From contig NZ_KI421514.1 in assembly GCF_000473325.1 (NCBI RefSeq), positions 4,340 to 68,339 of the forward strand: 64,000 nucleotides of DNA, read 5' to 3'. Source of the DNA: Leisingera caerulea DSM 24564 (GTDB lineage Bacteria > Pseudomonadota > Alphaproteobacteria > Rhodobacterales > Rhodobacteraceae). Shown here one piece after another: positions 1,935 to 15,940 of the stretch. Numbering within the stretch: position 1 is the stretch's first letter; each line of letters opens with the position of its first letter. The position numbers were made by a program, and so were the translations under genes. The notes under the pieces were generated by a model. It worked only from the letters and a program-made list of their open reading frames with translations, was not told the origin of the DNA and did no database searches.

Positions 1935-3566
1935 TTATTCCTCGGAGTTCAAGGCCGGGCCGCCGTTGTGGCCCAGCAGCTTGGCGAAACTTTCCTGCAT
2001 CGGGTGCAGAACGCCCGCGGGCATTTTGCCCATTTCGTCTTTGATCTGATCCATGTTGTCGCCCCAGTCGGAGCCGGTCAGCTCGGCCGCCTCATCTTCC
2101 AGCGTCGAGACACCCAGCGCCACGCGCATCGCCGCCGCCTGGATCTCCTTGACCGGATCCACGAACCCGCGGCCGGGCCCAACCCATTTGGCCCGTGAAT
2201 AGGCCATCCAGTTCTGATGGAAGTCCGGCGCGTTCTGCGGCAGCCGGATCCGGCGATCCAGAACCATTTCCTCCAGCCAGGACATGAAGAAAGGCTGGCA
2301 AAAGCCTTGCGCAAAGGCTGTCCGGCGGACAGTCCAGCCGCGCCAGATCTCGATCAGCGCAGCACGGGCGCTGGAGTAGTTCGTCTTGCTCCAGTCACTG
2401 GCCAGCTGCTCATAAGAAATGCCCAGACCGCTGGCGACATGGCGCAGCACCGCGGCTTCAAAGTCGGCAAACTGCGCCGCCGGGCGCGCGGTCTGGACCA
2501 TGCCGATTTCATCATTCGGAAACAGCGCCTGGATCCGCGCACCGCCAACCTTGATCGAGTTTTCCTGATAGAACTGGCTGCGCTCACCTACCCAGCCGCT
2601 TGCTGCAGACCCCTCTTTGGTGATGCCGTCCTCACCAAACATTTCCTCCATGGCCTCAGGACCCATGGGCGACTTGATGAAGGCGGCCAGCACAGCATTG
2701 ATCACGGCGGCCTGCAGCTCCACTTTCGAATAGTGGTCTTCCATCCGCAGCTTTTCGACGATCGGCGCCATGCGGGAGACGCCGCGGGTTTGGCCGTCAC
2801 GCAACTTGTCAAAGAAATGGATGACGATCGGACGGCCCCACCGGGTTTCCCGCCGGATGCGTTTCCACTTCACCCCCTCAACCCCGGCCCAGCGGTCACT
2901 TTGGTGCGCCTCGCGGAAGTTGTAGGCCAGCGCCACGCCGTCGCGGGACAGGTCGATGCCGCCGCGCAGGAAACGCTCATCAGCGCGGTCATGCGGATTT
3001 GACAGCAAGTCGGGATCCACGAGCCGCAGGCAGGTTTTGGTTGGCCGGCGCTTCCGCCAGTTGTTCAGCCCCAGCGCCTCGCCTTCCAGCAGGTAGCCTC
3101 GGTAGGCGGTGCCGAACATCTGCGGAACCGTTTGCGAGCGGGTCACATCGGCATACTTGCGGGGATCTTCCGCGTAGCTGCGCCATTCACTGGTGACCTG
3201 TTCCTTGAACTCATTGGCCCATTCCTTGCTCAACCCCAGAGCGCGCCAATCCGGTTTCACGAATGGGCGGAAATTGCCTCCGATGATCGCATCAACTTCC
3301 TTGCCCACCGCGCCAGCAGCAAAGCCGTTGTTGCGCGCCAAGTCGCGCGTGCGGGCGTTGATCACCTTCCGGGCCGGGCCAATTTCAGCATCCGCCGACA
3401 TGGTGCGCGGCTGGAAACCCGACATGGTTTCAATTCCGCGGTCACCGGCCACATAGGGCGAGCTACCGCCAAAGCCAGCCTCCCGGCGCGCAGCGGCCTG
3501 CGGCTTGAACCCAGCGTCTTGGGCCTGCTTTTTCGACGGAACCAGCCGCTGCAGAAACGCTTTCAA
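1935..3566 (-). CDS. Portal protein (lambda gpB family)
   Basis: A 543-residue portal protein, the dodecameric ring at the capsid vertex through which DNA is packaged and to which the head-tail joining proteins attach. Family features include the early segment with ARTRDLARNNGFAAGAVGKEVDAI-like spacing, a central DRWAGVEGVKWKRIRRE stretch, IHFFDKLRDGQTRGVSRMAP and the FADFEAAVLRHVASGLGISYEQLASDWS core, all characteristic of lambda-type portals. The length matches the family (about 500-550). The start is a TTG that overlaps the gpW stop (TTGA), so translation is probably coupled; the first in-frame ATG would remove conserved N-terminal residues. Confidence 0.93.
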   Translation of the reverse strand: MKAFLQRLVPSKKQAQDAGFKPQAAARREAGFGGSSPYVAGDRGIETMSGFQPRTMSADAEIGPARKVINARTRDLARNNGFAAGAVGKEVDAIIGGNFRPFVKPDWRALGLSKEWANEFKEQVTSEWRSYAEDPRKYADVTRSQTVPQMFGTAYRGYLLEGEALGLNNWRKRRPTKTCLRLVDPDLLSNPHDRADERFLRGGIDLSRDGVALAYNFREAHQSDRWAGVEGVKWKRIRRETRWGRPIVIHFFDKLRDGQTRGVSRMAPIVEKLRMEDHYSKVELQAAVINAVLAAFIKSPMGPEAMEEMFGEDGITKEGSAASGWVGERSQFYQENSIKVGGARIQALFPNDEIGMVQTARPAAQFADFEAAVLRHVASGLGISYEQLASDWSKTNYSSARAALIEIWRGWTVRRTAFAQGFCQPFFMSWLEEMVLDRRIRLPQNAPDFHQNWMAYSRAKWVGPGRGFVDPVKEIQAAAMRVALGVSTLEDEAAELTGSDWGDNMDQIKDEMGKMPAGVLHPMQESFAKLLGHNGGPALNSEE

Positions 3567-3778
3567 AACGAAACCCTCCGGGACCCAAGACGGGAGCGCC
3601 CCAGCTTGCGCTGCAGCTCGTTGATCCGGCGGCGCAGACCGGTTTCGGTCGGCTTGGCGAATTTCGTGCCGTGGCCGTCATAATCCACTTCGGTCACCTG
3701 GCCGCCGGTCAGCAGCCGATGCAGCGCGTCTTCCGCCTCTGCCAGCTGCGCTTCCAGCTTTTCTCTATCGATTGACAT
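3563..3778 (-). CDS. Head-tail joining protein gpW
   Basis: A 71-residue homologue of lambda gpW (68 residues), which binds the portal after packaging and allows gpFII and the tail to attach. The visible pattern matches: an N-terminal helix ending in ALHRLLTGGQV, a beta-hairpin around TEVDYDGHGTKFAKPT and a second helix LRRRINELQRKLG. It overlaps both neighbours, the terminase large subunit stop upstream and the portal start downstream, in the same A-W-B order as lambda. No anomalies. Confidence 0.9.
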   Translation of the reverse strand: MSIDREKLEAQLAEAEDALHRLLTGGQVTEVDYDGHGTKFAKPTETGLRRRINELQRKLGRSRLGSRRVSF

Positions 3779-5780
3779 TCAGCATCCCTGACAGGCTCTG
3801 CCGCTTTTCAGCGGGCTTTGGTTTCTTGGTTGCGGCGGCCTCGGCCGAGACTGGCACTACCGCATCGAACAGGTCGCCTTGCTGTTCGGGGGGCACCGCG
3901 CCGCGCTCAGCCTCCAGGGCATCCCACTGAGCGTCAGTCAGCGACGCCCAGCCTTTCCGCAGCGCTCCGGCTTCAGCGTAAAGCTCGGTATCCAGCACCT
4001 CGTTTCGCCGCGTCGGCTCCACCAGCTCCCACTTCGCAGTGACCGTCCCTGATCTCTGTCTGGTCAGGGTCCGGACCTCCGAGACGAACTGCCGGTAAAA
4101 CTCATCCCCGAGCCCTTTGGCGAAGTGACAGTAACCGCGCTCCGCCGGGTCCAGCTGCTCCACCCATTTGTAAAGCTGCCCCTTCATGCTGGAGACGTTG
4201 AGGATGAACGCCCGCTTCTGCTGGCGCTTCGCTTTGCCGTCTTTGCGGCGCTCAAACTTCTGCGGCACCATGTTCGGGCCGTTCTGGTTGCTGCCGCCCT
4301 TCACGATGATCACCCGGTGCCAGGAGTGCTTCTTGGCCCAATCCCAGACATCATCCGTATAGGTGCCGCCATCGATCGCCAAAACGTCGAGCTTGACCTT
4401 GAACCCCAGTTCCGTCCGCCACTCCGCGGCCAGGTAAGCATCTAGGGTATCCCGGCATTCCTTGGTGCTGATGTGGTGCGGAATGATCTTATAATGCACC
4501 GTCCAGCGCTGCCGGTTCCGGCAGAAGCACTTGAAATGCACTTCGGTGCGATCATCCTGACAGTCGACACCTGCGCTGAAAATGAACCCGGTGGCAGGCA
4601 GAATTCCCACCGGCAGGGGCCGGATCCCGTCTTCGATCTCGTCGGCTTCCTCGACGCGGTTTTTCAGAACTTCCCAGTCCATCGAGCCCGAGGACTGCTC
4701 ATAGGCCAGTCCCAGAACATCATTGAAAAACGTCTGTTCGGTTTCGGCCTCTACCGACTGTTTCTTCTCTTCCTTGCTGGCTTCGCCTTCCGTGCGAGTC
4801 CAGCCCATGACGCGGGCGTATTCCTTGGCGATCGAGGCCCAGTCCCGCTGCGGCGCGTAAGCCCGCCACAGGAAGAACCCCGGGTGGTCCCCCTTCGGGT
4901 TGGTCGCCCGCCAGCGGCCCCGGCGGACAATCTCTTCCTTGTGCTTGTGTTCGATCTTGCCCTGGCAGGGCTCGCAGCGGAAATGGGCGTCCTCAAGGTT
5001 AGTCGGATTAATATTCTCGACAAAATTCTCCCAGGTCAGCGCGGCCATGTGGCCGCAATGCGGGCAGGGAACCTCATAGACGCGCTGGTCGCTCCGCGCA
5101 TATGCCCGGTTGATCCGGCAGGTGCCCTTGATCAGCGGAGTCGACACCCGCAAGATCTTGGCTTCTTCGAAACCGCTGGCCCGGCTTTCCGCAAGGGCTT
5201 CCGGATCGCCCTTGTCCGTCATCTCGAACTTCGCCAGGTCATCCATGATGACCAGGCGGCGGGATGTGCCGGTCAAGTCGGCCGGGGAACCGGAAGAAGC
5301 AACTTTCAGGCTGCCGTCACGCGCAACGGTTTCCTGATTGAATTTCTGGTCTCGGTTCTCACCGCCGGCCAATCCATCGCCGAAGATCCGCTTCAGATCC
5401 GGCGCCTGGCGCCGCATCGGCTTCCACTTGTTGTCCACCCACTCTGTGGCGGCCGACATGGTGGGATGAACCACCAGGCTGTCCAGCGCAGTGCTGTTGT
5501 GCCAGGCGCCCAGCGTCGGCTGGATGATGGAAACCGTCTTCCCCCATTGCGCCGAACCGAGGATTGTCACTTCCCGGCAGGGGTGTTCCGGTGAAAGAAC
5601 CTCGTGGATCTCCCGCAGGAACGCAAAGCGTTCAATATCGAAAGGCCCCGGCATCGGCGAGCGCGCGTCGAAGACGATATTGTCTTCGCACCACTTGGTG
5701 ATATCCGGCGGCGGCGGCGGCGCCATGGCTTGCGACAGGGCGAGCCCGACCACACCGGCTGCAGAAGTGAGGAACCCCAT
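3765..5780 (-). CDS. Terminase large subunit (lambda gpA family)
   Basis: A 671-residue packaging motor with N-terminal ATPase and C-terminal nuclease. Walker A is the deviant GSAQWGKT (about residues 75-82) and Walker B is RLVIMDD (about 175-181), with an adjacent SSGSPADLTGTSRR stretch typical of gpA. A zinc-binding pair CPHC/CEPC follows near residues 239-272. The nuclease region holds LAIDGGTYTDDVWDW with likely metal-binding aspartates. I chose the ATG forming TGATG with the small-subunit stop because AGGA lies just upstream; an ATG two codons earlier is possible. It works with the small subunit next door and the cos region presumed upstream of that. Confidence 0.94.
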   Translation of the reverse strand: MGFLTSAAGVVGLALSQAMAPPPPPDITKWCEDNIVFDARSPMPGPFDIERFAFLREIHEVLSPEHPCREVTILGSAQWGKTVSIIQPTLGAWHNSTALDSLVVHPTMSAATEWVDNKWKPMRRQAPDLKRIFGDGLAGGENRDQKFNQETVARDGSLKVASSGSPADLTGTSRRLVIMDDLAKFEMTDKGDPEALAESRASGFEEAKILRVSTPLIKGTCRINRAYARSDQRVYEVPCPHCGHMAALTWENFVENINPTNLEDAHFRCEPCQGKIEHKHKEEIVRRGRWRATNPKGDHPGFFLWRAYAPQRDWASIAKEYARVMGWTRTEGEASKEEKKQSVEAETEQTFFNDVLGLAYEQSSGSMDWEVLKNRVEEADEIEDGIRPLPVGILPATGFIFSAGVDCQDDRTEVHFKCFCRNRQRWTVHYKIIPHHISTKECRDTLDAYLAAEWRTELGFKVKLDVLAIDGGTYTDDVWDWAKKHSWHRVIIVKGGSNQNGPNMVPQKFERRKDGKAKRQQKRAFILNVSSMKGQLYKWVEQLDPAERGYCHFAKGLGDEFYRQFVSEVRTLTRQRSGTVTAKWELVEPTRRNEVLDTELYAEAGALRKGWASLTDAQWDALEAERGAVPPEQQGDLFDAVVPVSAEAAATKKPKPAEKRQSLSGMLNVNR

Positions 5781-6412
5781 CAGCAATCCTGCGCCTTTTC
5801 GTCCTCAGACATGTCCGCGGACTGAGCATCGTCAGCGAGCTTGCGCGACCGCTTGTCCCGGTGGCCGCGCCATGTGTCGATCAGCAGTTTCTTGACCGAT
5901 TTGAAGTCGACTCCGAATTCATCCGCAACGGCACGAGCGCCCACCCGCATAACCTGCTCGAATTCTGCGATCTCCTGACTGATCAGCTTTTTGACTTCCA
6001 GCTCGACTTCCGAGGCCAGGACATACAGGCCTTCCGCTTCGGCATTCTGGCGGCGCAATTTTCGCGCTTCTTCCACTGCCTTTTGCGTGCGGGCAAGGCT
6101 GTAGCCGTCCTGATCCTCTTCCGGCAGACGGCGCGCACCGGCGCCGATCTCAGACTGGCCCAGCGGCAGCTCTTCACCCTGCTGATCGGCCAGGTTCTGC
6201 AAAGCCTCGCGGGTGCCAGCCCCGTTGCCAAGCATCTGCCCGGGATCAAGCCTCTGGCCCAGTGCGGCCCGGCATTTTTCGAGATCAAACCGGCGGTGCC
6301 TTCCCTCGCCCGTGTAACACCCGGCCAGCTGACCACTGGACACCATTTGACTGATACGCCCCTTCGACTTGTTCAGTTTTTTGGCGAGTTCAGATGCTGT
6401 CACTGTGGTCAT
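5780..6412 (-). CDS. Terminase small subunit (Nu1-like)
   Basis: A 210-residue DNA-recognition subunit. Residues 1-50 form a winged helix-turn-helix (TASELAKKLNKSKGRISQMVSSGQL, then the wing GRHRRFDLEKC), as in Nu1 and other MerR/AlpA-like terminase small subunits. The middle is polar linker and the C-terminal helical part (about 100-200) should bind the large subunit. It would bind cosB-type sites, expected just upstream of its own start as in lambda. The ATG has little ribosome-site character and is preceded by tandem TTTAG/CTAAA repeats, which may be its own binding sites. Confidence 0.88.
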   Translation of the reverse strand: MTTVTASELAKKLNKSKGRISQMVSSGQLAGCYTGEGRHRRFDLEKCRAALGQRLDPGQMLGNGAGTREALQNLADQQGEELPLGQSEIGAGARRLPEEDQDGYSLARTQKAVEEARKLRRQNAEAEGLYVLASEVELEVKKLISQEIAEFEQVMRVGARAVADEFGVDFKSVKKLLIDTWRGHRDKRSRKLADDAQSADMSEDEKAQDC

Positions 6413-9033: not shown

Positions 9034-9190
9034 CGCTTGCAGCCCCCCTTCCCTTCAGGATCTCCTGTGCGCGATCAGCATCAACCAGCCAGGTGCGGCC
9101 GCACTTCAGGCAGCAACCGGCCCAGCCGGTTTCATTCGCAGCTCCGTAGGCGCTCACATTCTTGTCTTTCTTGCAGCACGAAATCTGCAC
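9026..9190 (-). CDS. Small Cys-rich (zinc-ribbon-like) protein, 54 residues
   Basis: A short gene. It starts with GTG sharing one base with the methyltransferase stop (TAGTG) and has a near-perfect AGGAGG ribosome site seven bases upstream, embedded in the last codons of that gene. It ends in an 8-bp overlap with the next start. The product has an N-terminal Cys-Cys (SCCKKD) and a second cluster CCLKCGRTW, the spacing of a small treble-clef or zinc-ribbon protein. Coupling at both ends and the strong ribosome site argue that it is real. Function unknown; perhaps a protein- or nucleic-acid-binding accessory. Confidence 0.72.
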   Translation of the reverse strand: MQISCCKKDKNVSAYGAANETGWAGCCLKCGRTWLVDADRAQEILKGRGAASDG

Positions 9191-9975
9191 TATACCGCCT
9201 CCTGAAACATGTCCGGCTGAAACTGAGGCACAGCCAGGCCAAGCTGCTGCGCCGCCAGAACCGCCTTTCGCACCCGGCGGCAGGCCAGTTCGAAATACTC
9301 CGGTTTCTGTTCAATCCCGATGGCCCGCCGCCCGGTCAGCGCCGCGGCAACCAGCGTGGTTCCGGATCCCATGAACGTATCCGCCACCAGGTCGCCCGGA
9401 TTGGTGAAATCGAACAGGATATCCCGCATCAGCCGCCAGGGCTTTTCCGTGGTGTGGCCGCCAGTGCGGTCCCGGGGATTGCAGGGCTCGACATAGACGC
9501 CGCGCTTGCCGCCGGCATTCCACCGCGAATGCCCCTTGCCAGCCCAGGCACAGACGAAATTTTCATAACCGGGTGCAGGGCCCTGCCCGTTTATCTGCGG
9601 CATCGCGTCCGGCTTGATCCAGGCACAGGCCCGTTTGTACCTCATCGGGCTGGCGTTGATCGCATCCGCCCACCGCCCGACCCCCTCCGGCGTGCAGAAT
9701 GCGATGAACCAGCCATCGCACTGTGTACCCAGGTCAACTACACGGTCCCGGATTTCATCAATCGGCGCAAAATCCAATTCCTGCGATGCGCTGCCGCCGT
9801 CGGTGCGCAGATCCTTGCGCGCCTTCGCACCCTTTGCTTCGTGCATAATCGCCTCATACGGCGGATCCTTCACGAAATGATCCACGCGGCCCAGCTGCGG
9901 CATGATCTCCAGGCAATCGCCCAGGTACAGCGTGCAGCCGCCGATCACCACCTTGCGCTGCCACGGGTCAGCCAT
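9190..9975 (-). CDS. Phage DNA methyltransferase (N4/N6 amino type)
   Basis: A 261-residue S-adenosylmethionine-dependent methyltransferase. The catalytic motif IV is KDPPYE near residue 37 and the SAM-binding motif I is DTFMGSGTT near residue 204, giving the order IV before I of the beta class; the GIEQKPEYFELACRR segment is motif II. A target-recognition region lies between. With no restriction endonuclease nearby it is an orphan methylase that may protect phage DNA or modulate transcription. I prefer the ATG giving MADPW, which has GGTGAGG upstream and overlaps the previous stop, over an ATG three codons earlier. N6-adenine versus N4-cytosine cannot be settled by eye. Confidence 0.9.
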   Translation of the reverse strand: MADPWQRKVVIGGCTLYLGDCLEIMPQLGRVDHFVKDPPYEAIMHEAKGAKARKDLRTDGGSASQELDFAPIDEIRDRVVDLGTQCDGWFIAFCTPEGVGRWADAINASPMRYKRACAWIKPDAMPQINGQGPAPGYENFVCAWAGKGHSRWNAGGKRGVYVEPCNPRDRTGGHTTEKPWRLMRDILFDFTNPGDLVADTFMGSGTTLVAAALTGRRAIGIEQKPEYFELACRRVRKAVLAAQQLGLAVPQFQPDMFQEAV

Positions 9976-10411
9976 CGGCCTCACCCCCGTTCAAAACGCA
10001 GACCGGCTTCATCCGGTCCAGGGCGCAGCAGGCCGCCCGCCAGACGCAGGCCGACCGGCGCCAGCCGGGCACCGGCGGAATGATCACAAGATCGGCGTAG
10101 TTCAGAATCCGGACAGGATCCGCTATGTCAGCGCCCGCCTCATCGGCAAGATAGGCGGGTGCCAGCGGCAGGATATCCACCCTGCCCAGCTGCGCCATCC
10201 ATTCCAGCGCGGTATCCGCCGCCAGAACCGGCCCGCCGTCGTACCGGGCATAGGGCGTTGCTAGGCAGGCCAGCCGCCCGGCGGCATCTGCCGCGATAGC
10301 CTCCAGCATCAGCCCCTGGCGGAACAGCCCGCCCGGCGCCCAGAACCAGGCTAGCCAGGTCCAATCCGGATCATCCGGGAACTGCCGCGCGGCTGCTGAC
10401 AAATCAAGCAT
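9968..10411 (-). CDS. DUF1937-like small protein (deoxyribosyltransferase-like fold)
   Basis: A 147-residue protein starting MLDLSAAARQ; an earlier start would overlap the preceding gene too far. The stretch LACLATPYARYDGG, followed by DILPLAPAYLADEAG and LNYADLVIIPPVPGWRRSACVWRAACCA, resembles the pattern of DUF1937/nucleoside 2-deoxyribosyltransferase-like phage proteins (start strand with PY, a conserved Asp, a closing helix). Those proteins are linked to nucleotide metabolism, but activity here is not demonstrable. It overlaps both neighbours by a few bases, so it is co-translated with the methyltransferase. Confidence 0.65.
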   Translation of the reverse strand: MLDLSAAARQFPDDPDWTWLAWFWAPGGLFRQGLMLEAIAADAAGRLACLATPYARYDGGPVLAADTALEWMAQLGRVDILPLAPAYLADEAGADIADPVRILNYADLVIIPPVPGWRRSACVWRAACCALDRMKPVCVLNGGEADG

Positions 10412-10670
10412 TGACCGCCCCCGCGAAAAAGGGGGCACGCGGCAGACCATCCGCCACGCGCCCCAAGGTCAACAGGGAGGTATTAAGGGGCATTCTGCAG
10501 CCACGCCTGCCCCCGGTCAGCGCCACTGGCGGGAAAGGACCCCGCCCCGCAGAATTTTCGCAGGCGGCCAGGGCGTGTCCGCCACCCAGGCTGCCTGCAC
10601 CTTCAGCACCGCTGCCATCGGTGGCGGAAGGTATCTTGATATGGCCTTTTTCTGGTCGGGCGACGGTCAT
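10404..10670 (-). CDS. Unknown small early protein coupled to the Cro-like gene
   Basis: An 88-codon frame whose ATG overlaps the Cro-like stop (ATGA) and whose stop overlaps the next ATG (ATGCTTGA). Tight overlap on both sides is the main reason to accept it. The product is Gly/Ala/Pro-rich with no recognisable fold (GSGAEGAGSLGGGHALAA). An alternative is that only an internal start at MPLNTSLLTL is used, giving 29 residues. Composition alone would not support it, so confidence is moderate. Confidence 0.42.
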   Translation of the reverse strand: MTVARPEKGHIKIPSATDGSGAEGAGSLGGGHALAACENSAGRGPFPPVALTGGRRGCRMPLNTSLLTLGRVADGLPRAPFFAGAVNA

Positions 10671-10957
10671 TCGTCGCCCTCGATATCCTTTGCAAATTGC
10701 TCAAGAGGCGGAAGCTCAACACCCTGCTCGCGCGCTGCCTTAAGTGCTGCGCGATAAATCTTGGCAGCCGTTGTAAGGTGAATTTCACGCGACTTCGCGC
10801 GAACATCTTCAAACTTCCCCAATGTATTCGGAGCAACACCAGCCGCCACGCACAAGGTGGAGGGTTTGATCCCCAGCTTTTGCCTAGCTACCGTGAGCCA
10901 AGCTCTGAACTCATCCGAGTCAGGCAAGAACGTCTCTTGTTCGCCCTCTGGCTTCAC
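10667..10957 (-). CDS. Cro/CII-like HTH regulator of the leftward early operon
   Basis: A 96-residue DNA-binding protein with a GTG start and GAGG eight bases upstream; that ribosome site lies inside an operator-like repeat. Residues about 16-60 form a helix-turn-helix (FRAWLTVARQKLGIK, STLCVAAGVAPNTLGKFED). Its recognition helix PNTLGKF is identical to that of the divergent repressor-like protein, so both probably bind the same palindromes. As first gene of the leftward operon it occupies the Cro position: it would limit the repressor gene and its own promoter after induction. Confidence 0.82.
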   Translation of the reverse strand: MKPEGEQETFLPDSDEFRAWLTVARQKLGIKPSTLCVAAGVAPNTLGKFEDVRAKSREIHLTTAAKIYRAALKAAREQGVELPPLEQFAKDIEGDE

Positions 10958-10961
10958 GGCG

Positions 10962-11062
10962 CAACCTCAAAATGTTGTTTTATCACCTTTTGAGGTTATA
11001 TGTAGCATTTCGAGGTGTGTAAACAACCTTTTTGGTATATTCATTTTCACCCCAAAAGGTGA
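10962..11062. promoter_or_regulatory. Immunity-region operator array (five 16-bp palindromes)
   Basis: Operator-like palindromes start at 10962 (CAACCTCAAAATGTTG), 10983 (TCACCTTTTGAGGTTA), 11003 (weak, right half GAGGTGT), 11024 (ACC-T5-GGT core, one base shorter) and 11047 (TCACCCCAAAAGGTGA). Spacing is 20-23 bp, about two helical turns, so bound dimers would line up on one face. The array fills the gap between the divergent HTH genes. The outermost sites overlap the two ribosome sites, and the 10983 site covers the leftward -10 and start point. It resembles lambda OL/OR logic. Confidence 0.82.
10995..11023 (-). promoter_or_regulatory. Leftward early promoter (PL/PR-like)
   Basis: On the minus strand TTTACA (-35) and TATAAC (-10) are separated by 17 bp, a good sigma-70-type promoter. 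It reads into the GTG of the Cro-like gene. One strong operator overlaps the -10 and start region and a weaker one the spacer, so repressor binding would shut off the early operon. On the opposite strand a TATATT (11036-11041) is a likely -10 for the repressor gene, with a poor -35. Confidence 0.68.
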
Positions 11063-11066
11063 AAGT

Positions 11067-11426
11067 ATGCCGCAAAACAAACAGCGGATCGTCAGTATGG
11101 ATGACATTTGGGAGAAGAGACGCGCTAACCTAGGCGCCTTGATGGGCGCTAAGCGCATGAAGGCAGCGCAGGTCTGCCAAGCTGCCAAAGTATCCCCAAA
11201 TACCTTGGGCAAGTTTATGCGGGGGGAAAGCAAGACCCTGTCTCAAAAGAGCTTAGAGGCCATTCTGGCAGTCCTTGAATCGAACTTGATGGCAATTGAT
11301 TCCAACAACCCCCTATCCAACGCAAAAACAGAGCTGTTCAAGATCATTGAGGGAATGTCGGAGGAAGAGGCCAGGCAAGAACTGGAGAGAATTTCTAGCT
11401 CTACGGCTGACCGGTCCGGTTCTTAA
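11067..11426 (+). CDS. Phage repressor-like HTH protein
   Basis: A 119-residue protein, MPQNKQRIVSMDD onward. Residues about 12-55 form the helix-turn-helix (NLGALMGAKRMKAAQVCQAA, KVSPNTLGKFMRGES) followed by a helix and a C-terminal helical tail (LFKIIEGMSEEEARQELERI) that could mediate dimerisation. There is no LexA/CI-type autoprotease domain (no Ser-Lys dyad, too short), so induction cannot go by RecA-stimulated self-cleavage and needs another input. The ATG lies four bases after the last operator, whose AAGGTGA half also serves as ribosome site. Divergent from the Cro-like gene and followed by luxR-luxI, it is the best candidate for the immunity repressor. Confidence 0.82.
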   Translation: MPQNKQRIVSMDDIWEKRRANLGALMGAKRMKAAQVCQAAKVSPNTLGKFMRGESKTLSQKSLEAILAVLESNLMAIDSNNPLSNAKTELFKIIEGMSEEEARQELERISSSTADRSGS

Positions 11427-11517
11427 GCTCTTCCAGGTACTTAGCAGCCTGGGCGTCGCTCATTTTCTCCACAAGAGCTTTCAAATCTTCCTTAGCCGAA
11501 GGCACTATGTCACGCAT
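11401..11517 (-). CDS. Possible 38-residue antisense protein convergent with the repressor
   Basis: A short frame starting MRDIVPSAKEDLKALVEK and ending NRTGQP, opposite to and overlapping the last 26 bases of the repressor gene. Its helix ALVEKMSDAQAAKYLEEL has the same spacing as the repressor's own C-terminal IIEGMSEEEARQELERI, an amphipathic pattern that could pair with it. The ribosome site is weak (GGAT ten or so bases upstream) and no clear promoter is visible. It may be chance coding in a short gap. Confidence 0.35.
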   Translation of the reverse strand: MRDIVPSAKEDLKALVEKMSDAQAAKYLEELKNRTGQP

Positions 11518-11566
11518 GTCTAATATCCAATAAAGCTATGCGCGGCCATAGCTGCACAACTCACGC

Positions 11567-11595
11567 TTGCGGTTCAATACCCAAAATGGTAAATT
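11567..11595 (+). promoter_or_regulatory. Promoter of the luxR-luxI pair
   Basis: TTGCGG (-35) and TAAATT (-10) are separated by exactly 17 bp on the plus strand. Transcription would start near 11602, inside the second operator of the adjacent pair, and 25 bp before the preferred luxR ATG. The arrangement puts an operator over the -10/spacer and another over the start point, the standard position for repression. Confidence 0.65.
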
Positions 11596-11611
11596 TCACC
11601 CCAAAAGGTGA
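11577..11611. promoter_or_regulatory. Operator pair over the luxR promoter
   Basis: TCACCCCAAAAGGTGA at 11596-11611 is identical in all 16 bases to the operator just before the repressor gene. An adjoining weaker copy, ATACCCAAAATGGTAA, occupies 11577-11592, giving 19-bp spacing. Both lie on the -10 and transcription start of the luxR promoter. An exact 16-bp repeat about 550 bp from the first copy is strong evidence that the same phage regulator controls the quorum-sensing genes. Confidence 0.82.
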
Positions 11612-11627
11612 TACCGCGAGAATTTTC

Positions 11628-12245
11628 ATGCAGTTTTTTCCCGACGTGCCCGCAGACCTGTCCGACGTTGCGCCACATGGCCTAGCACTTGGAATTGGTT
11701 CATTTCGAACCGGCCAGATTGACGTGTTCACCACCTACTCGACCGAATGGCAGAGCCTATACCATGAGCGGAAATGGCTGAACCGGGATCCCGCAGTGAT
11801 CATTGGCTTACGCGGCCCTGGAGTTCACCATTGGACCGCAGAAACCATTCAGGACCCGGAATTCAAGGACGCCTGCTTTGGTTACGGCCTAAAGTCTGGA
11901 ACCTCGATCACAGACACAATCGCAGGAAGTTCTTGCCTGGTCGGTCTCACCACCAACGATACCCCGTCCGACGCCGCGATTGAAGCCGCGACACGGGCTG
12001 TTAGGGAGGCTCACATGGGATACCTGACCAGCAAAGCCCAACTGCTGCACCCCCAACATATTGACGTGGTTTACCTTGCCGCAAAGGGGTATCGCGCAAA
12101 AGAAATCTCAGCGAAGCTCGAAATTTCCGAGGAAACCGTGAAGCAAAGAAAGGCTTCAATACAAAGCAGAATAGGCGTTAACAATTTCACAACTGCAGTG
12201 AACATTTGCGCCATCGCTGGTTTAACCCTTCACCCCATAAAGTAG
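11628..12245 (+). CDS. luxR: LuxR-family acyl-homoserine-lactone receptor/transcription factor
   Basis: A 205-residue protein with an N-terminal autoinducer-binding domain (about 10-135) and a C-terminal LuxR-type HTH (about 140-200). The ligand-domain invariants are present at the TraR spacing: Trp41, Tyr45, Asp54, Pro55, Trp69 and a Gly at 91. The HTH reads KEISAKLEISEETVKQRK; the usual His after TVK is Gln/Arg. The protein is shorter at the N-terminus than TraR or LuxR (about 235). I chose this ATG because earlier in-frame ATGs lie before the predicted transcription start or inside the operator. Its gene sits between phage repressor and luxI, inside the prophage. It should sense the LuxI product; target promoters are unknown. 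Confidence 0.92.
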   Translation: MQFFPDVPADLSDVAPHGLALGIGSFRTGQIDVFTTYSTEWQSLYHERKWLNRDPAVIIGLRGPGVHHWTAETIQDPEFKDACFGYGLKSGTSITDTIAGSSCLVGLTTNDTPSDAAIEAATRAVREAHMGYLTSKAQLLHPQHIDVVYLAAKGYRAKEISAKLEISEETVKQRKASIQSRIGVNNFTTAVNICAIAGLTLHPIK

Positions 12246-12266
12246 AGGAAACTCCCGCGGAGGCGG

Positions 12267-12290
12267 TGCAAACCTTACTCCTAGTTTGCA
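12267..12290. promoter_or_regulatory. Dyad between luxR and luxI (lux-box-like or RNA hairpin)
   Basis: TGCAAAC and GTTTGCA form 7-bp perfect arms (nine with one mismatch) around a 10-bp centre, ending four bases before the GGAG ribosome site of luxI. The overall size fits a LuxR-family binding site, giving positive feedback on luxI, or an RNA hairpin that tunes luxI translation. It differs from the TCACC operators. The dyad is seen; the role is inferred. Confidence 0.5.
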
Positions 12291-12305
12291 ACTTGGAGAA
12301 TAGGC

Positions 12306-12878
12306 ATGCAGCACAGCATTGTATCTTGGGAAACGATCCACGAGCACGGCCAGCTTTGGTGGCTACATCTAAAAATGCGGAAACAGCTCTTTGTTGACGA
12401 AATGCACTGGAGCATTCCTCACACTCCTGACGTTGAGGCGGATCAGTACGACACGCCCAAAACGCTATACGTCATCACCCACACCAATGGCACCCCTTTG
12501 GCCGCTTCACGGCTAAATCCGACTTTCGGCGACTTCGGCTACTGGTCATACATGATCAACGACGCTTGCGAAGGAAAACTGCCCGGCATTCCGGATACCC
12601 TGATGGACGCCCCACCCCGGGACCACAATATTTGGGAAGCAACCCGTTTCACGGTTGATCCCAGCATCCCGAAAGCGGAACGCAACTCAATACTTGCCGA
12701 AAACGCCCGGGCGCTAACTGGCGCGGCCAGAGACTTGGGGGCATCGAAGCTCATTGCACTAATGCCGCCGGCATATGTCCGCTGGCTAACCTCAATCGGC
12801 CTACCTACTAACAAGACAGGCCCAACCTTGAAAGATGGACAAGGCAACAGGATCTGCACGATAGAAATGGCGCTCTGA
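12306..12878 (+). CDS. luxI: LuxI-family acyl-homoserine-lactone synthase
   Basis: A 190-residue enzyme that would make an acyl-homoserine lactone from S-adenosylmethionine and acyl-ACP or acyl-CoA. The family invariants are all in place: Arg25, Phe29, Trp35, Asp46, Asp49, Arg69, Glu111 and Arg114, in the segments RKQLFVDEMHW, DQYDTP, ASRLNPT and WEATRF. Length is normal for the family (about 190-220). ATG with GGAG eight bases upstream; 60 bp after luxR on the same strand. The C-terminal acyl-specificity region (LIALMPPAYVRWLTSIGLP) cannot be read for chain length. It is embedded in the prophage lysogeny region and has no frameshift, so it should be active. Confidence 0.94.
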   Translation: MQHSIVSWETIHEHGQLWWLHLKMRKQLFVDEMHWSIPHTPDVEADQYDTPKTLYVITHTNGTPLAASRLNPTFGDFGYWSYMINDACEGKLPGIPDTLMDAPPRDHNIWEATRFTVDPSIPKAERNSILAENARALTGAARDLGASKLIALMPPAYVRWLTSIGLPTNKTGPTLKDGQGNRICTIEMAL

Positions 12879-12885
12879 CCGCGCC

Positions 12886-12948
12886 AAACCCCGAAAGGTC
12901 ATTTTTAAATCTTTTGGGGTTGTTAATCACCTTTTGAGGTGATATTCA
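12886..12948 (+). promoter_or_regulatory. Third operator array and promoter for the integration operon
   Basis: Operator-like sites start at 12886 (AAACCCCGAAAGGTCA, 12 of 16 matches), 12907 (weaker, CTTTTGGGGT core) and 12927 (TCACCTTTTGAGGTGA, the best palindrome of all), at 21- and 20-bp spacing. TTGTTA (12920-12925) and TATTCA (12943-12948) with 17 bp between them form a promoter whose spacer is filled by the strongest operator. The first two sites also form an 11-bp inverted repeat (AACCCCGAAAG/CTTTTGGGGTT) that could act as a weak terminator for luxI. The promoter reads toward the small genes, xis and int. Confidence 0.72.
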
Positions 12949-12975
12949 TCTCTCCGAAAATGGAGAGGGCAGACT

Positions 12976-13227
12976 ATGACACAGCACACCCCGCAGACTG
13001 AACACGGCAAGGCGGGCGCTTGCCAGATTGTTCACCTCAGCAAAGAGGTCCGCTTTGACGCCCCGCCGAAGCGCTCACTGCACGTTCCTGCCAATGGCGC
13101 TGCTGAAAACACCCGGCGCCAAGCAGAGCGCGTCGCCGGTCTTTCCGCTCGCATCCATCGCCACATCGCCGCCAAGGGCTACCCCACCCGGCCGCCGGCA
13201 CTCATCGCGCCGGGGGCCCTGAGATGA
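12976..13227 (+). CDS. Small basic phage protein, first gene of the right operon
   Basis: An 83-residue protein with GAGAGGG upstream of the ATG. It is rich in Ala, Arg, His and Pro, with a helical middle (NTRRQAERVAGLSARIHRHIAA). No family recognised. As first gene behind the operator-controlled promoter, and coupled to the next gene by ATGA, it may be regulatory or part of the excision machinery, but nothing in the sequence shows this. Confidence 0.6.
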   Translation: MTQHTPQTEHGKAGACQIVHLSKEVRFDAPPKRSLHVPANGAAENTRRQAERVAGLSARIHRHIAAKGYPTRPPALIAPGALR

Positions 13228-13565
13228 CCGGCCCCTCCCCACAGGAAATCTACGCAGCAGCCCAGAACATGGCCGAGGCCAGCCCGATCACACGCGCGCT
13301 GATTTTCGCCGGTCTGGGTGGCGAGTCCTGGCCCGCCGATCCTGAGCTCGTTGGTCATGACGAATTTGATTGGACGGTGCGCCTTTACGGCCTGACAGAG
13401 CGCGGGCCCAGCCAGAACGCGGCCATCGGGGAATGGGTCAAGTCCGCCCTGACCCTGCACCAGGACAACAAGACTGCCCGCGCCACCGATGGCCGCCCGG
13501 ATTGCCCGTTCAACGGCGCAGCTCCGCTGCCACCCGCAGACACGCAAGTTGCCGAGGCCGTCTGA
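13224..13565 (+). CDS. Unknown phage protein, 113 residues
   Basis: The ATG overlaps the previous stop. The product has an acidic, Trp-containing middle (DEFDWTVRLYGLTERGPSQNAAIGEWVKSAL) with predicted helices and a Pro/Ala-rich C-terminus. No signal peptide or membrane segment. I do not recognise the family. It is followed by a GC-rich hairpin with a short T run. Confidence 0.58.
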   Translation: MTGPSPQEIYAAAQNMAEASPITRALIFAGLGGESWPADPELVGHDEFDWTVRLYGLTERGPSQNAAIGEWVKSALTLHQDNKTARATDGRPDCPFNGAAPLPPADTQVAEAV

Positions 13566-13649: not shown

Positions 13650-13889
13650 ATGCAGGAACAAAGGGCAACATTACTGGCCGCAGCATCCGCTGCCAGCGCC
13701 GCGACCTCCGACATGATCGAGGCCGCGCGTGGTGATCACATCAGCGCCTTCGACGGTGTGGGATCAGGGGAAACGATTACCTCGCTGGCCGACGCCCTGC
13801 GCCTCCTGCTGGATGCGGCATCCGGCGAAACCGAGGAAGAAACGCAGCTCCACGGCGCAGTCGTGCGGTTCCTCGAGTCACAATCCTAA
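13650..13889 (+). CDS. Small acidic phage protein, 79 residues
   Basis: An Ala- and Ser-rich N-terminal helix (LLAAASAASAATSDMIEAA) is followed by an acidic helical C-terminus (ITSLADALRLLLDAASGETEEETQ). ATG with a GGAGA ribosome site about eight bases upstream. No known family or catalytic motif. Its acidity and size would fit a DNA-mimic or inhibitor-type protein, but that is speculation. Confidence 0.58.
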   Translation: MQEQRATLLAAASAASAATSDMIEAARGDHISAFDGVGSGETITSLADALRLLLDAASGETEEETQLHGAVVRFLESQS

Positions 13890-13975: not shown

Positions 13976-14251
13976 ATGCCCACGGAACAGAAAAAGCGCT
14001 TTGAAGATCTGCCGCCGTCGACGCAGGCAGGCATCCTCTGCAATGACCCGCGGTTTCAGACCTTCGCAGCCCAACGCTGCGGCTACCCGGACAAGCAGCT
14101 CACCCAAGGCGGCGCGGCTGAGTACGTCCGACAGGTCTGCAAGGTAACCAGCCGCTGCGAGTTGTTGCACGACCCGGCCGCCGCCGACCGCTTCCAGTCC
14201 CTGCGCACAGAATTCGACGCATGGACCGGCAAACTCGCAACGCCCCGCTGA
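13976..14251 (+). CDS. Unknown phage protein, 91 residues, four cysteines
   Basis: Begins MPTEQKKRFEDLPPSTQAGILC and has Cys residues near positions 22, 34, 55 and 61 without a CxxC pair, so a zinc site is possible but not obvious. GAAAGG lies upstream of the ATG. The DLPPSTQAGILCNDPRFQ beginning looks like a conserved phage small protein, but I cannot name it. It sits in the rightward run toward int. Confidence 0.6.
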   Translation: MPTEQKKRFEDLPPSTQAGILCNDPRFQTFAAQRCGYPDKQLTQGGAAEYVRQVCKVTSRCELLHDPAAADRFQSLRTEFDAWTGKLATPR

Positions 14252-14551: not shown

Positions 14552-14755
14552 GTGCCCGCAGCAAACCAAATCCTAGCGCGCGAAAGCACGGCAGCTAAGA
14601 TGCTGGATATGCCGCTCAGGGAATTCCGCGCCTTGGTGGCAGCCGGGAGCCTGCCCAAGCCGGTTAAGATTGGCGGCAAATTAGAACGCTGGTCCGTGAA
14701 ACAGCTTGAGGCAATCAGCTCAGGCGCCATGCTGAGTGAAGATTTCGAATGGTAA
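14552..14755 (+). CDS. Excisionase/AlpA-like DNA-binding protein
   Basis: A 67-residue protein with a GTG start and a GGAGA ribosome site. It has a MerR/AlpA-type winged helix: a first helix-turn-helix (ARESTAAKMLDMPLREFRALVAAGSLPKPVKI), then GGKLERWSVKQLEAI as the wing and helix. Proteins like this direct recombination toward excision or activate int. Its stop overlaps the integrase start (ATGGTAA), the classic xis-int coupling. A regulator of another promoter is an alternative. Confidence 0.82.
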   Translation: MPAANQILARESTAAKMLDMPLREFRALVAAGSLPKPVKIGGKLERWSVKQLEAISSGAMLSEDFEW

Positions 14756-15759
14756 AGAAGAACTCAAAACCTTACCTGGCCCGGATACCGCGCGGCGGAA
14801 AAGACTACTGGTATTTTCGCAAGGGCAAGACTCTGATCCGCCTTCCCGACGATCCCGACAGCGAGGAATTTGACCGGGAATACTGGGCCATCAGATCAGG
14901 CCAGCACAAGGCGACGGTAAAAACGACCTTTGAGGCACTGATCGCCAGCTACTACCAAACACCTCGGTTCAAGGGATTGAAGCCAAGCACCAAGGCGGAG
15001 TACCGCCGCACCCTTGAATTGCTCCGCGAAAAGAACGGCCCCAAAGACTTCACCAAACTGCGCCGCAAACACGTTATCGCTGCGCGGGACAAGTATGCAG
15101 ACCAGTGGCGCAAGGCGAATGCCATGGTCGAACAGCTTTCGATTCTGGCCCGTCACGCCATTGATCTGGAATGGATCACCGCCAACCCCGCCCAGGGCGT
15201 CGAAAAGCTGAAGGGCGGCAGCTATGAAGCCTGGCCGGAGCCAAAGCTGGCCGCATATGAGCGCTACTGCGAACAGCATGGGCTGAAGATTGAGCGCGCG
15301 ATTTATGAGCTGTGCATCGGCACCGGGCAGCGCATTGGTGATGTGGTAGCCATGGAATGGGCGCACTTCCAAGGCGGTTACATGGACGTTGTGCAGGAGA
15401 AAACCGGCGCCCGGCTTTCGATCTTCTGCCCGGAGCGCCTGCAGACCTTTCTGGAGCGCTTGCCGCGCAACGGAAAACACATCGTGTCAAAGAACCTGAC
15501 GCAACACATCAGCAAACGGCGCGCTCAGAGCCTTGTGGCCGAAGTCCGCAAGAAGATCGAGGCCGAGGGCTTTGTAATCCACGGCTGGCGCTACACCGCC
15601 GCCAAAGAGCTGGCAGAGGCAGGCTGCTCAGACACCGAAATCCAATCAGTGACCGGCCACAAATCGCTGGAAATGGTGAAGAAGTACCGCCAGCAAGCTA
15701 GGCAAAGGCAGCTCTCAAAGACAGCTCAGCTGCGCCGGAACAGAACAAATACAGAATAG
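14749..15759 (+). CDS. int: Tyrosine site-specific integrase
   Basis: A 336-residue lambda-family integrase. The catalytic domain (about 160-330) shows the first Arg in GTGQRIGDVVAMEW, the HGWR (His-x-x-Arg) box in VIHGWRYTAAKELAEAG, the later His in VTGHKSLEMV and the nucleophilic Tyr in KKYRQQA. The N-terminus carries an arm-binding-like part and a SAM-like core-binding domain (TFEALIASYY to AITANPAQG). It lies between xis and tRNA-Leu, with paired GTGTAAAAC repeats just downstream that may be its arm sites. It should integrate the phage at the tRNA 3' end. Confidence 0.95.
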   Translation: MVKKNSKPYLARIPRGGKDYWYFRKGKTLIRLPDDPDSEEFDREYWAIRSGQHKATVKTTFEALIASYYQTPRFKGLKPSTKAEYRRTLELLREKNGPKDFTKLRRKHVIAARDKYADQWRKANAMVEQLSILARHAIDLEWITANPAQGVEKLKGGSYEAWPEPKLAAYERYCEQHGLKIERAIYELCIGTGQRIGDVVAMEWAHFQGGYMDVVQEKTGARLSIFCPERLQTFLERLPRNGKHIVSKNLTQHISKRRAQSLVAEVRKKIEAEGFVIHGWRYTAAKELAEAGCSDTEIQSVTGHKSLEMVKKYRQQARQRQLSKTAQLRRNRTNTE

Positions 15760-15855: not shown

Positions 15856-15940
15856 TGGTGCGGGTGAAGGGACTTGAACCCCCACGCCTTGCGGCGCCAG
15901 AACCTAAATCTGGTGCGTCTACCAATTCCGCCACACCCGC
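15856..15940 (-). tRNA. tRNA-Leu (anticodon UAG), prophage attachment gene
   Basis: On the minus strand the gene reads GCGGGTGTGGCGGAATTGG and so on, with a 7-bp acceptor stem closed by CACCCGC, discriminator A and encoded CCA. The anticodon arm is CCAGA-TTTAGGT-TCTGG, giving anticodon UAG, and the long class II variable arm (GCGCCGCAAGGCGT) identifies leucine. The T-loop GGTTCAAGTCC is normal. The 3' end points at the integrase, so the prophage has integrated into the 3' part of this gene and restored it. The att core is expected between about 15,856 and 15,890. Confidence 0.97.

Follow-up and report, generated by a model that had tools for sequence, protein, structure and literature searches.

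Genes for signalling by acyl-homoserine lactones (AHLs) have been described for several bacteriophages. In 2019, a myovirus with a luxI gene adjoining luxR was reported and likened to arbitrium (PMC6456758). A coral-associated phage was found to carry an AHL synthase together with a LuxR protein (PMC11309003). The closest described system is that of two prophages of Phaeobacter inhibens T5, each with a four-gene module in which hth is counter-oriented to an xre-luxR-luxI run (hth | xre-luxR-luxI). In the parts of the July 2026 preprint drawn on here, it was shown that each LuxI makes AHLs and that these sustain lysogeny; the lysogeny promoter needs both LuxR and LuxI, and inhibition leads to induction (PMC13345283). 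Phage A requires XRE for activation and in Phage B XRE lowers the lysogeny promoter, which means that XRE does not act alike in all modules (PMC13345283). In the same source, luxI was identified in 53 of 93 Roseobacter prophages, with ten LuxI types (A-J, at 80% identity), and the modules are described as exchanged between phages, with cI- or BRCT-type regulators in their place in some cases, and as confined to the Roseobacter clade (PMC13345283). In Aeromonas phage ARM81ld, XRE and LuxR with C4-HSL activate a counter-oriented small gene, which leads to lysis (PMC9894119).

This paper deals with a 64,000-nucleotide stretch of contig NZ_KI421514.1 of Leisingera caerulea DSM 24564, referred to as the window. 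For this DNA, the original prediction had described a complete AHL synthase and receptor pair in a prophage lysogeny region, best read as a counterpart of arbitrium. That reading was retained, but the added statement that such a system is not established has to be withdrawn, going by the portions of the two reports used here (PMC13345283, PMC6456758), and prophage AHL signalling with the same four-gene order is already known (PMC13345283). What appears to be new is a cassette bracketed by operators, which was not found described in the literature; the main text of the preprint makes no mention of operators, palindromes, motifs or a lux box (PMC13345283). The window quite probably contains a lambda-like prophage's switch between lysis and lysogeny, in which a four-gene quorum-sensing (QS) cassette, hth | xre-luxR-luxI, holds lysogeny at high AHL.

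The four genes and their prophage setting

The luxI gene (12306-12878, forward strand) is an open frame for a 190-aa protein which matches the Pfam family Autoind_synth with 33.4 bits (cut-off 24). Residues R25, F29, W35, D46, D49, R69, E111 and R114, all named in the original prediction, are invariant in an alignment of 32 sequences. These we take to be the conserved residue set of LuxI-type AHL synthases, by which the protein is assigned to this type. Its nearest named relatives are found in Leisingera sp. S132 (84% identity) and, next, Phaeobacter inhibens (75%). This type of LuxI is rare: matches at E <= 1e-40 were obtained in three of 394 genomes of the host family, one of them the genome of the window, the other two with 44% identity. 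Named phage records contain luxI in four of 50,697 cases, each below 28% identity, and the named plasmid collection gave zero matches. Distant matches at 24-27% identity were noted in the Acinetobacter phage MD-2021a records, Pseudomonas phage Y5 and Bacteriophage sp. MT835580. The PHROGs family matched by LuxI (phrog_31881, E 5e-37) is labelled 'unknown function', so that luxI could escape notice when phage genomes are annotated.

The luxR gene (11628-12245, forward strand) is an open frame for a 205-aa AHL receptor and transcription factor. The longest reading frame begins at 11538 and the database entry has 219 aa; the relatives P0063-P0065 have 205 aa. The GerE domain was identified with 35.9 bits (cut-off 23.5), and Autoind_bind was matched with 21.3 bits, 1.7 below its cut-off of 23. 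For the pocket residues named in the original prediction, an alignment of 19 sequences showed Y45, D54 and P55 to be invariant and W69 and G91 to be conserved in at least 90%, with W41 replaced by F in two rows. This W-Y-D-P-W-G set presumably represents the pocket of LuxR-type AHL receptors. When an AlphaFold2 model of LuxR (mean pLDDT 88.7) was compared with the PDB, the top hits (lowest E 4.6e-11) included RhlR, QscR, SdiA and TraR, at TM-scores of only 0.4-0.5, which are put down to domain packing. The pocket residues, the autoinducer-binding domain below its Pfam cut-off, the GerE helix-turn-helix (HTH) and the predicted fold all point to a LuxR-type AHL receptor.

Upstream of luxR, xre (11067-11426, forward strand) codes for a 119-aa Cro/C1-type regulator (Pfam HTH_26, 29.8 bits, cut-off 22), in which only the HTH domain is visible and no CI-like cleavable part was seen. 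Counter-oriented to the xre-luxR-luxI run lies hth (10667-10957, reverse strand), coding for a 96-aa Cro-like DNA-binding protein. A Pfam search of Hth gave no match; by hhalign it is homologous to XRE (probability 96.8, E 2e-10). R19, N45, K49 and F50 of XRE are invariant over 12 XRE and nine Hth sequences, and the N...KF stretch is, judged from HTH structure, presumably the recognition helix of both proteins. Homologues of xre were identified in L006-L009, L011, L087-L090, L092 and L099, and tblastn placed hth homologues at the same position in L006, L007, L008, L009, L011, L087, L088, L089 and L092. The window thus has the layout of the four-gene QS module, and the same order, hth | xre-luxR-luxI, is present in nine relatives, termed class 1 together with it.

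The module sits in a prophage, as seen from structural genes and an att repeat. On the reverse strand, a portal protein (1935-3566, phrog_21, 2.6e-123, scanned as L102:6277-7905) and a terminase large subunit (3765-5786, phrog_15, 1.3e-147) are encoded. Seven of ten ORFs scanned from stretches within the contigs of the att repeats matched phage families: tail fibre, tail lysozyme/tape-measure-like, tape measure, minor tail, head protease, portal and terminase. Among the scanned window ORFs and these ten, which make up part of the prophage ORFs, a canonical cI/Cro-type or Ner/C regulator was not identified. An N6/N4 DNA methyltransferase gene is located at 9190-9984 (PF01555, 1.7e-23; 58% identical in L092).

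To the right of luxI, a head-to-tail run on the forward strand comprises orfA (from 12976), orfB (13224-13565), small genes at 13650, 13976 and 14262, an xis-like gene (14552-14755) and int for a tyrosine integrase (14749-15759; Phage_integrase 6.5e-16, phrog_1 1.5e-36); the run from orfA to int probably forms one operon. The luxR-luxI pair lies between xre and xis-int at exactly the coordinates given in the original prediction. OrfB, the genes at 13976 and 14262 and xis recur next to unrelated switch regions. OrfB itself is a small protein of no known family that was seen downstream of several different switch regions, with 78% identity in L116 and 34-42% elsewhere. The att repeat (15856-15911, reverse strand) is 56 bp long and corresponds to the 3' end of a tRNA-Leu gene. 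An identical copy with zero mismatches is present at G000:C7:3497770-3497825 of the host genome, and contig C7 ends 23 kb away from it; C8, the contig to which the window belongs, begins 4.3 kb left of the window. If C7 and C8 abut, as we infer, the prophage would comprise about 43 kb.

The host genome contains five luxI genes. One of them (L098, C7:1815062) lies among ordinary metabolic genes, yet is preceded by an HTH gene and luxR. Another belongs to a Mu-like prophage (L099, G000:C7:2885000-2904000; Mu transposase DDE_2, E 2.8e-50) with xre-luxR-luxI, where the counter-oriented hth was assigned by position. Given this Mu-like module in the same genome, the host, as is the case for P. inhibens T5, probably carries two QS prophages.

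The operator word and the predicted promoters

A 16-bp palindromic word, TCACCN6GGTGA, occurs four times in the window and is predicted to be an operator. O1 (TCACCTTTTGAGGTTA, 10983-10998) lies in the hth promoter, where it overlaps the -10 box of the predicted lytic promoter PLysis; O2 (TCACCCCAAAAGGTGA, 11047-11062) is located directly before xre; O3 (likewise TCACCCCAAAAGGTGA, 11596-11611) lies before luxR, 16 nt from its start; and O4 (TCACCTTTTGAGGTGA, 12927-12942) marks the right border of the cassette, inside a predicted promoter which follows luxI and precedes the xis-int genes. The four sites score 24-27 bits, the next best site in the 64 kb 10.3 bits and sites in ten shuffled windows at most 15.2 bits, a gap that is partly built in by a matrix made from O1-O4 themselves.

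Relatives were scored on the ten fixed letters of the word, with a site counted at nine or more matches. Matching sites were identified at the corresponding places in nine other modules (L006-L009, L011, L087-L090), whose LuxI identity is 48-75%. The spacing is similar throughout: O1 and O2 are 64-66 bp apart, O3 lies 685-710 bp before and O4 585-682 bp after the luxI start. The layout is common to all ten modules, two of them being weaker: L011 has two sites with at least nine matches, O1 and O4 having diverged, and L089 has three, with eight matches at O1. A fifth TCACC site is present in L088. The ten modules together contain 38 sites, compared with eight in the remaining 180.6 kb of the same loci; this count is a fairer test than the three-zone statistic given below because its word was derived from the window, even though repeats in seven of the relatives were already known. 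Among 85 other luxI loci, other phage modules included, 75 have no site, ten have one and none has two, and 100 shuffles of each module stretch gave a mean of 0.04-0.16 sites. The right arm of O1 reads GGTTA instead of GGTGA in nine of the ten modules, for which the overlap with the -10 box of PLysis may account. A phased operator array with steps of about 20 bp was considered and rejected, a single weak extra site being found 19 nt upstream of O4 (z 4.0).

PLysis is predicted at 10995-11023 on the reverse strand, with a -35 box TTTACA (11018-11023), a 17-nt spacer and a -10 box TATAAC (10995-11000). It has ten of 12 consensus matches in the window, and TATAAC is kept as the -10 box in seven of the ten modules. 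For the rightward promoter of the orfA-to-int genes (12920-12948, forward strand; -35 TTGTTA 12920-12925, -10 TATTCA 12943-12948), O4 fills the 17-nt spacer of a TTGnnn/TAnnnn pair. The window alone gives seven of 12 matches here; a register test over the ten modules gave 76 of 120, compared with 12-54 in 24 shifted registers. A possible internal luxR-luxI promoter (11567-11595, forward strand; TTGCGG, 17 nt, TAAATT) abuts O3; it is weak, with seven of 12 matches read by eye, and the script chose another hexamer pair there. The promoter at O4 is thus based on the comparative register test, that at O1 on consensus matches and that at O3 on reading alone. A generic scanner, which accepts a -10 box only if its second letter is A and its sixth is T, returned zero promoters in 10400-13200.

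A binding site for LuxR (lux box) was not found in the stretches upstream of O2 and O3, which are only marginally more alike within loci than between loci (permutation, p 0.063). By eye, TGCACAA followed by CTTG was seen upstream of O3 (11553-11572 in the window) in five of the ten class-1 modules, and could be an activator site.

A search for palindrome repeats that presupposed no particular word turned up different words in these three zones of further phage loci of xre-luxR-luxI order: TCATAA..TTATGA in L092, TCCATT..AATGGA in L094-L096 and TATAC..GTATA in L121. Among 94 luxI loci (L022 being out of range and L097 left out), with the genome-contig loci being the best 80 of 552 relatives, a three-zone statistic was positive in 15, the ten TCACC modules and five of other types, a clean split that is partly by design because zones and thresholds were fixed after the pattern had been seen. 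The observed value was reached in 0 of 40 shuffles for 14 of the 15 loci and in two of 40 for L090. The 79 negatives are mostly taken for host luxR-luxI loci; three are phage-linked, namely the viral contigs L091 and L093 and the Mu-like L099 of the same genome. In L095, luxI appears interrupted (9950-10420, longest frame 100 aa), with the operator layout kept.

In the few cases seen, the operator class tracks the XRE family. The XREs of L092 and L099 are matched by the window XRE at 32-36%, and both loci show TCATAA words, those of L099 mainly within the hth-xre gap. L094-L096 and L121 have different HTH proteins and different operator words.

A proposed switch governed by AHL

In the proposed switch, LuxI would make an AHL in the lysogen, and AHL-bound LuxR would activate the lysogeny promoter ahead of xre. 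XRE would then act on the four copies of the operator word: bound to O1, it would silence the leftward lytic promoter, from which hth and further genes are read, and bound to O4, the promoter that reads rightward into the xis-int genes, whereas O2 and O3 would serve to adjust expression of luxR and of the operon of XRE itself. Hth is homologous to XRE, shares its N...KF motif and may compete for O1-O4 once lysis has been chosen, as Cro does with CI; binding of all four operators by both proteins is predicted. Because XRE would shut the promoters at both O1 and O4, and AHL would feed xre, high AHL, implying many lysogens, would hold the prophage, and low AHL would free lytic and excision genes together. 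We infer which protein binds which operator, where the promoters lie and what sign the response has in this phage; the placement of operators and promoters fits activation of PLysogeny by LuxR-AHL and repression of PLysis in lysogens.

Several observations count against this switch: the three-zone test failed for L099, the generic promoter scan was empty, the hexamers at O3 and O4 reach 7/12 matches and a lux box was not found. In addition, XRE acts differently in Phages A and B of P. inhibens (PMC13345283), and xre-luxR of ARM81ld drives lysis (PMC9894119). This last system suggests a reversed sign, with LuxR activating the hth promoter together with XRE and lysis following at high signal: ARM81ld has the same xre-luxR order and counter-oriented small gene, and there XRE with LuxR-C4-HSL leads to lysis (PMC9894119). 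We regard the reversed sign as rather unlikely. ARM81ld reads a host signal, whereas luxI stands behind luxR here, and in P. inhibens the lysogeny promoter of both prophages that have this set of four genes depends on support by LuxR and AHL, according to the parts of the preprint drawn on (PMC13345283). Moreover, a PLysis with 10/12 consensus matches would fit repression better than activation.

Module exchange and comparison with known systems

The comparison with relatives bears on whether luxR-luxI might be cargo (a moron) serving the host or another phage, with lysogeny not set by the pair. The original prediction had named the absence of the pair from related prophages as pointing that way, and this was found in part: eight of nine integrase-related viral-contig loci, compared over 8 kb each, lack a luxI match. 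They include L116-L119, whose integrases are 96-97% identical and whose 8 kb beside the integrase contain nothing that matches the QS genes; the exception is L121, with an integrase at 65% and a different luxI (32% identity). Among terminase relatives, several of them short stretches, zero of seven match the QS genes. L116 and L120, the two of the nine read by eye, have other small HTH-like genes in this stretch, which is easier to reconcile with a switch that was exchanged than with inert cargo. The pair also lies between switch operators, one of them directly before luxR, and the four genes form a unit in common with L006 (70-77% identity), where orfB (39%) is the only other match of the window genes tested over 15 kb. 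Cargo is therefore considered very improbable. There is scant probability that one of the two proteins, LuxI or LuxR, has lost its activity, or that the compound made or sensed is something other than an AHL, as the Autoind_bind score 1.7 bits below the cut-off might suggest, with the LuxI catalytic and LuxR pocket residues kept and a LuxR fold matching AHL receptors.

Other relatives combine related phage genes with a different module. L092 has the methyltransferase at 58%, the terminase at 36% and a replication-like gene at 26% identity, and L094 has int, xis and orfB in common at 35-46%. A LuxI tree of 42 rows, which includes 28 of the best 80 (of 552) genome-contig loci and leaves out L095 and L097, was split by a branch with 98/95 support. 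On one side are 23 rows, cellular loci and the viral contig L093; on the other are 19 rows, comprising the fifteen phage modules, the host-context gene L098 and L010, L012 and L091; branches are very long for three of these rows. The class of the window's module reaches Roseibium litorale (Hyphomicrobiales), whose locus also contains a terminase, in contrast to the confinement to the Roseobacter clade stated in the portions of the preprint used (PMC13345283).

Returning to the switch that holds lysogeny at high AHL, we lean towards a more general view, in which phage QS modules would be self-contained heteroimmunity cassettes. Each would have its own operator word at fixed places, including the right border inside the excision-gene promoter, read by its own XRE and Hth, so that a swap would change signal, receptor and immunity together. 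The classes TCACC.., TCATAA.., TCCATT.. and TATAC.. would then be chemical and repressor immunity groups, AHL would command lytic replication and excision through two promoters, and the reach of the modules would extend beyond roseobacters to Roseibium. With the window, a lambda-like phage joins the newly found AHL-signalling prophages, and matched operators travelling with the cassette would give the unit-wise swapping of modules a testable DNA basis, with predictions for repressor-binding sites, the joint control of two outward gene sets and immunity groups.

In the immunity region of lambda, CI and Cro act with the OL and OR operators at both outward promoters flanking the immunity genes. 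The window resembles it in having two related HTH proteins and, to the left and right of the immunity genes, predicted repressor operators at the promoters that point outward; it differs in an XRE showing the HTH domain only, and in signal genes between the operators. Arbitrium uses the AimP peptide as signal and AimR as receptor. With this system of the SPbeta-group Bacillus phages, the window would have in common a diffusible, phage-made signal which reports lysogen density and favours lysogeny, but peptide and AimR are replaced here by an AHL and a LuxR-type receptor, the resemblance being one of function only.

With ARM81ld, the window has in common XRE and LuxR beside a counter-oriented small gene (PMC9894119, PMC6456758). 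ARM81ld differs as a linear plasmid-like phage in which host C4-HSL is sensed and lysis is driven, and no synthase of its own is mentioned in the portions of these reports drawn on here (PMC9894119, PMC6456758). Phages A and B of P. inhibens T5 are the closest: they too are prophages, their modules agree with this one gene by gene in order and orientation, the promoters diverge and modules are exchanged between phages (PMC13345283). These are Mu-like and ep3-like phages in the account used here (PMC13345283), whereas the phage of the window has a tyrosine integrase, an att site at tRNA-Leu and lambda-like packaging and tail genes.
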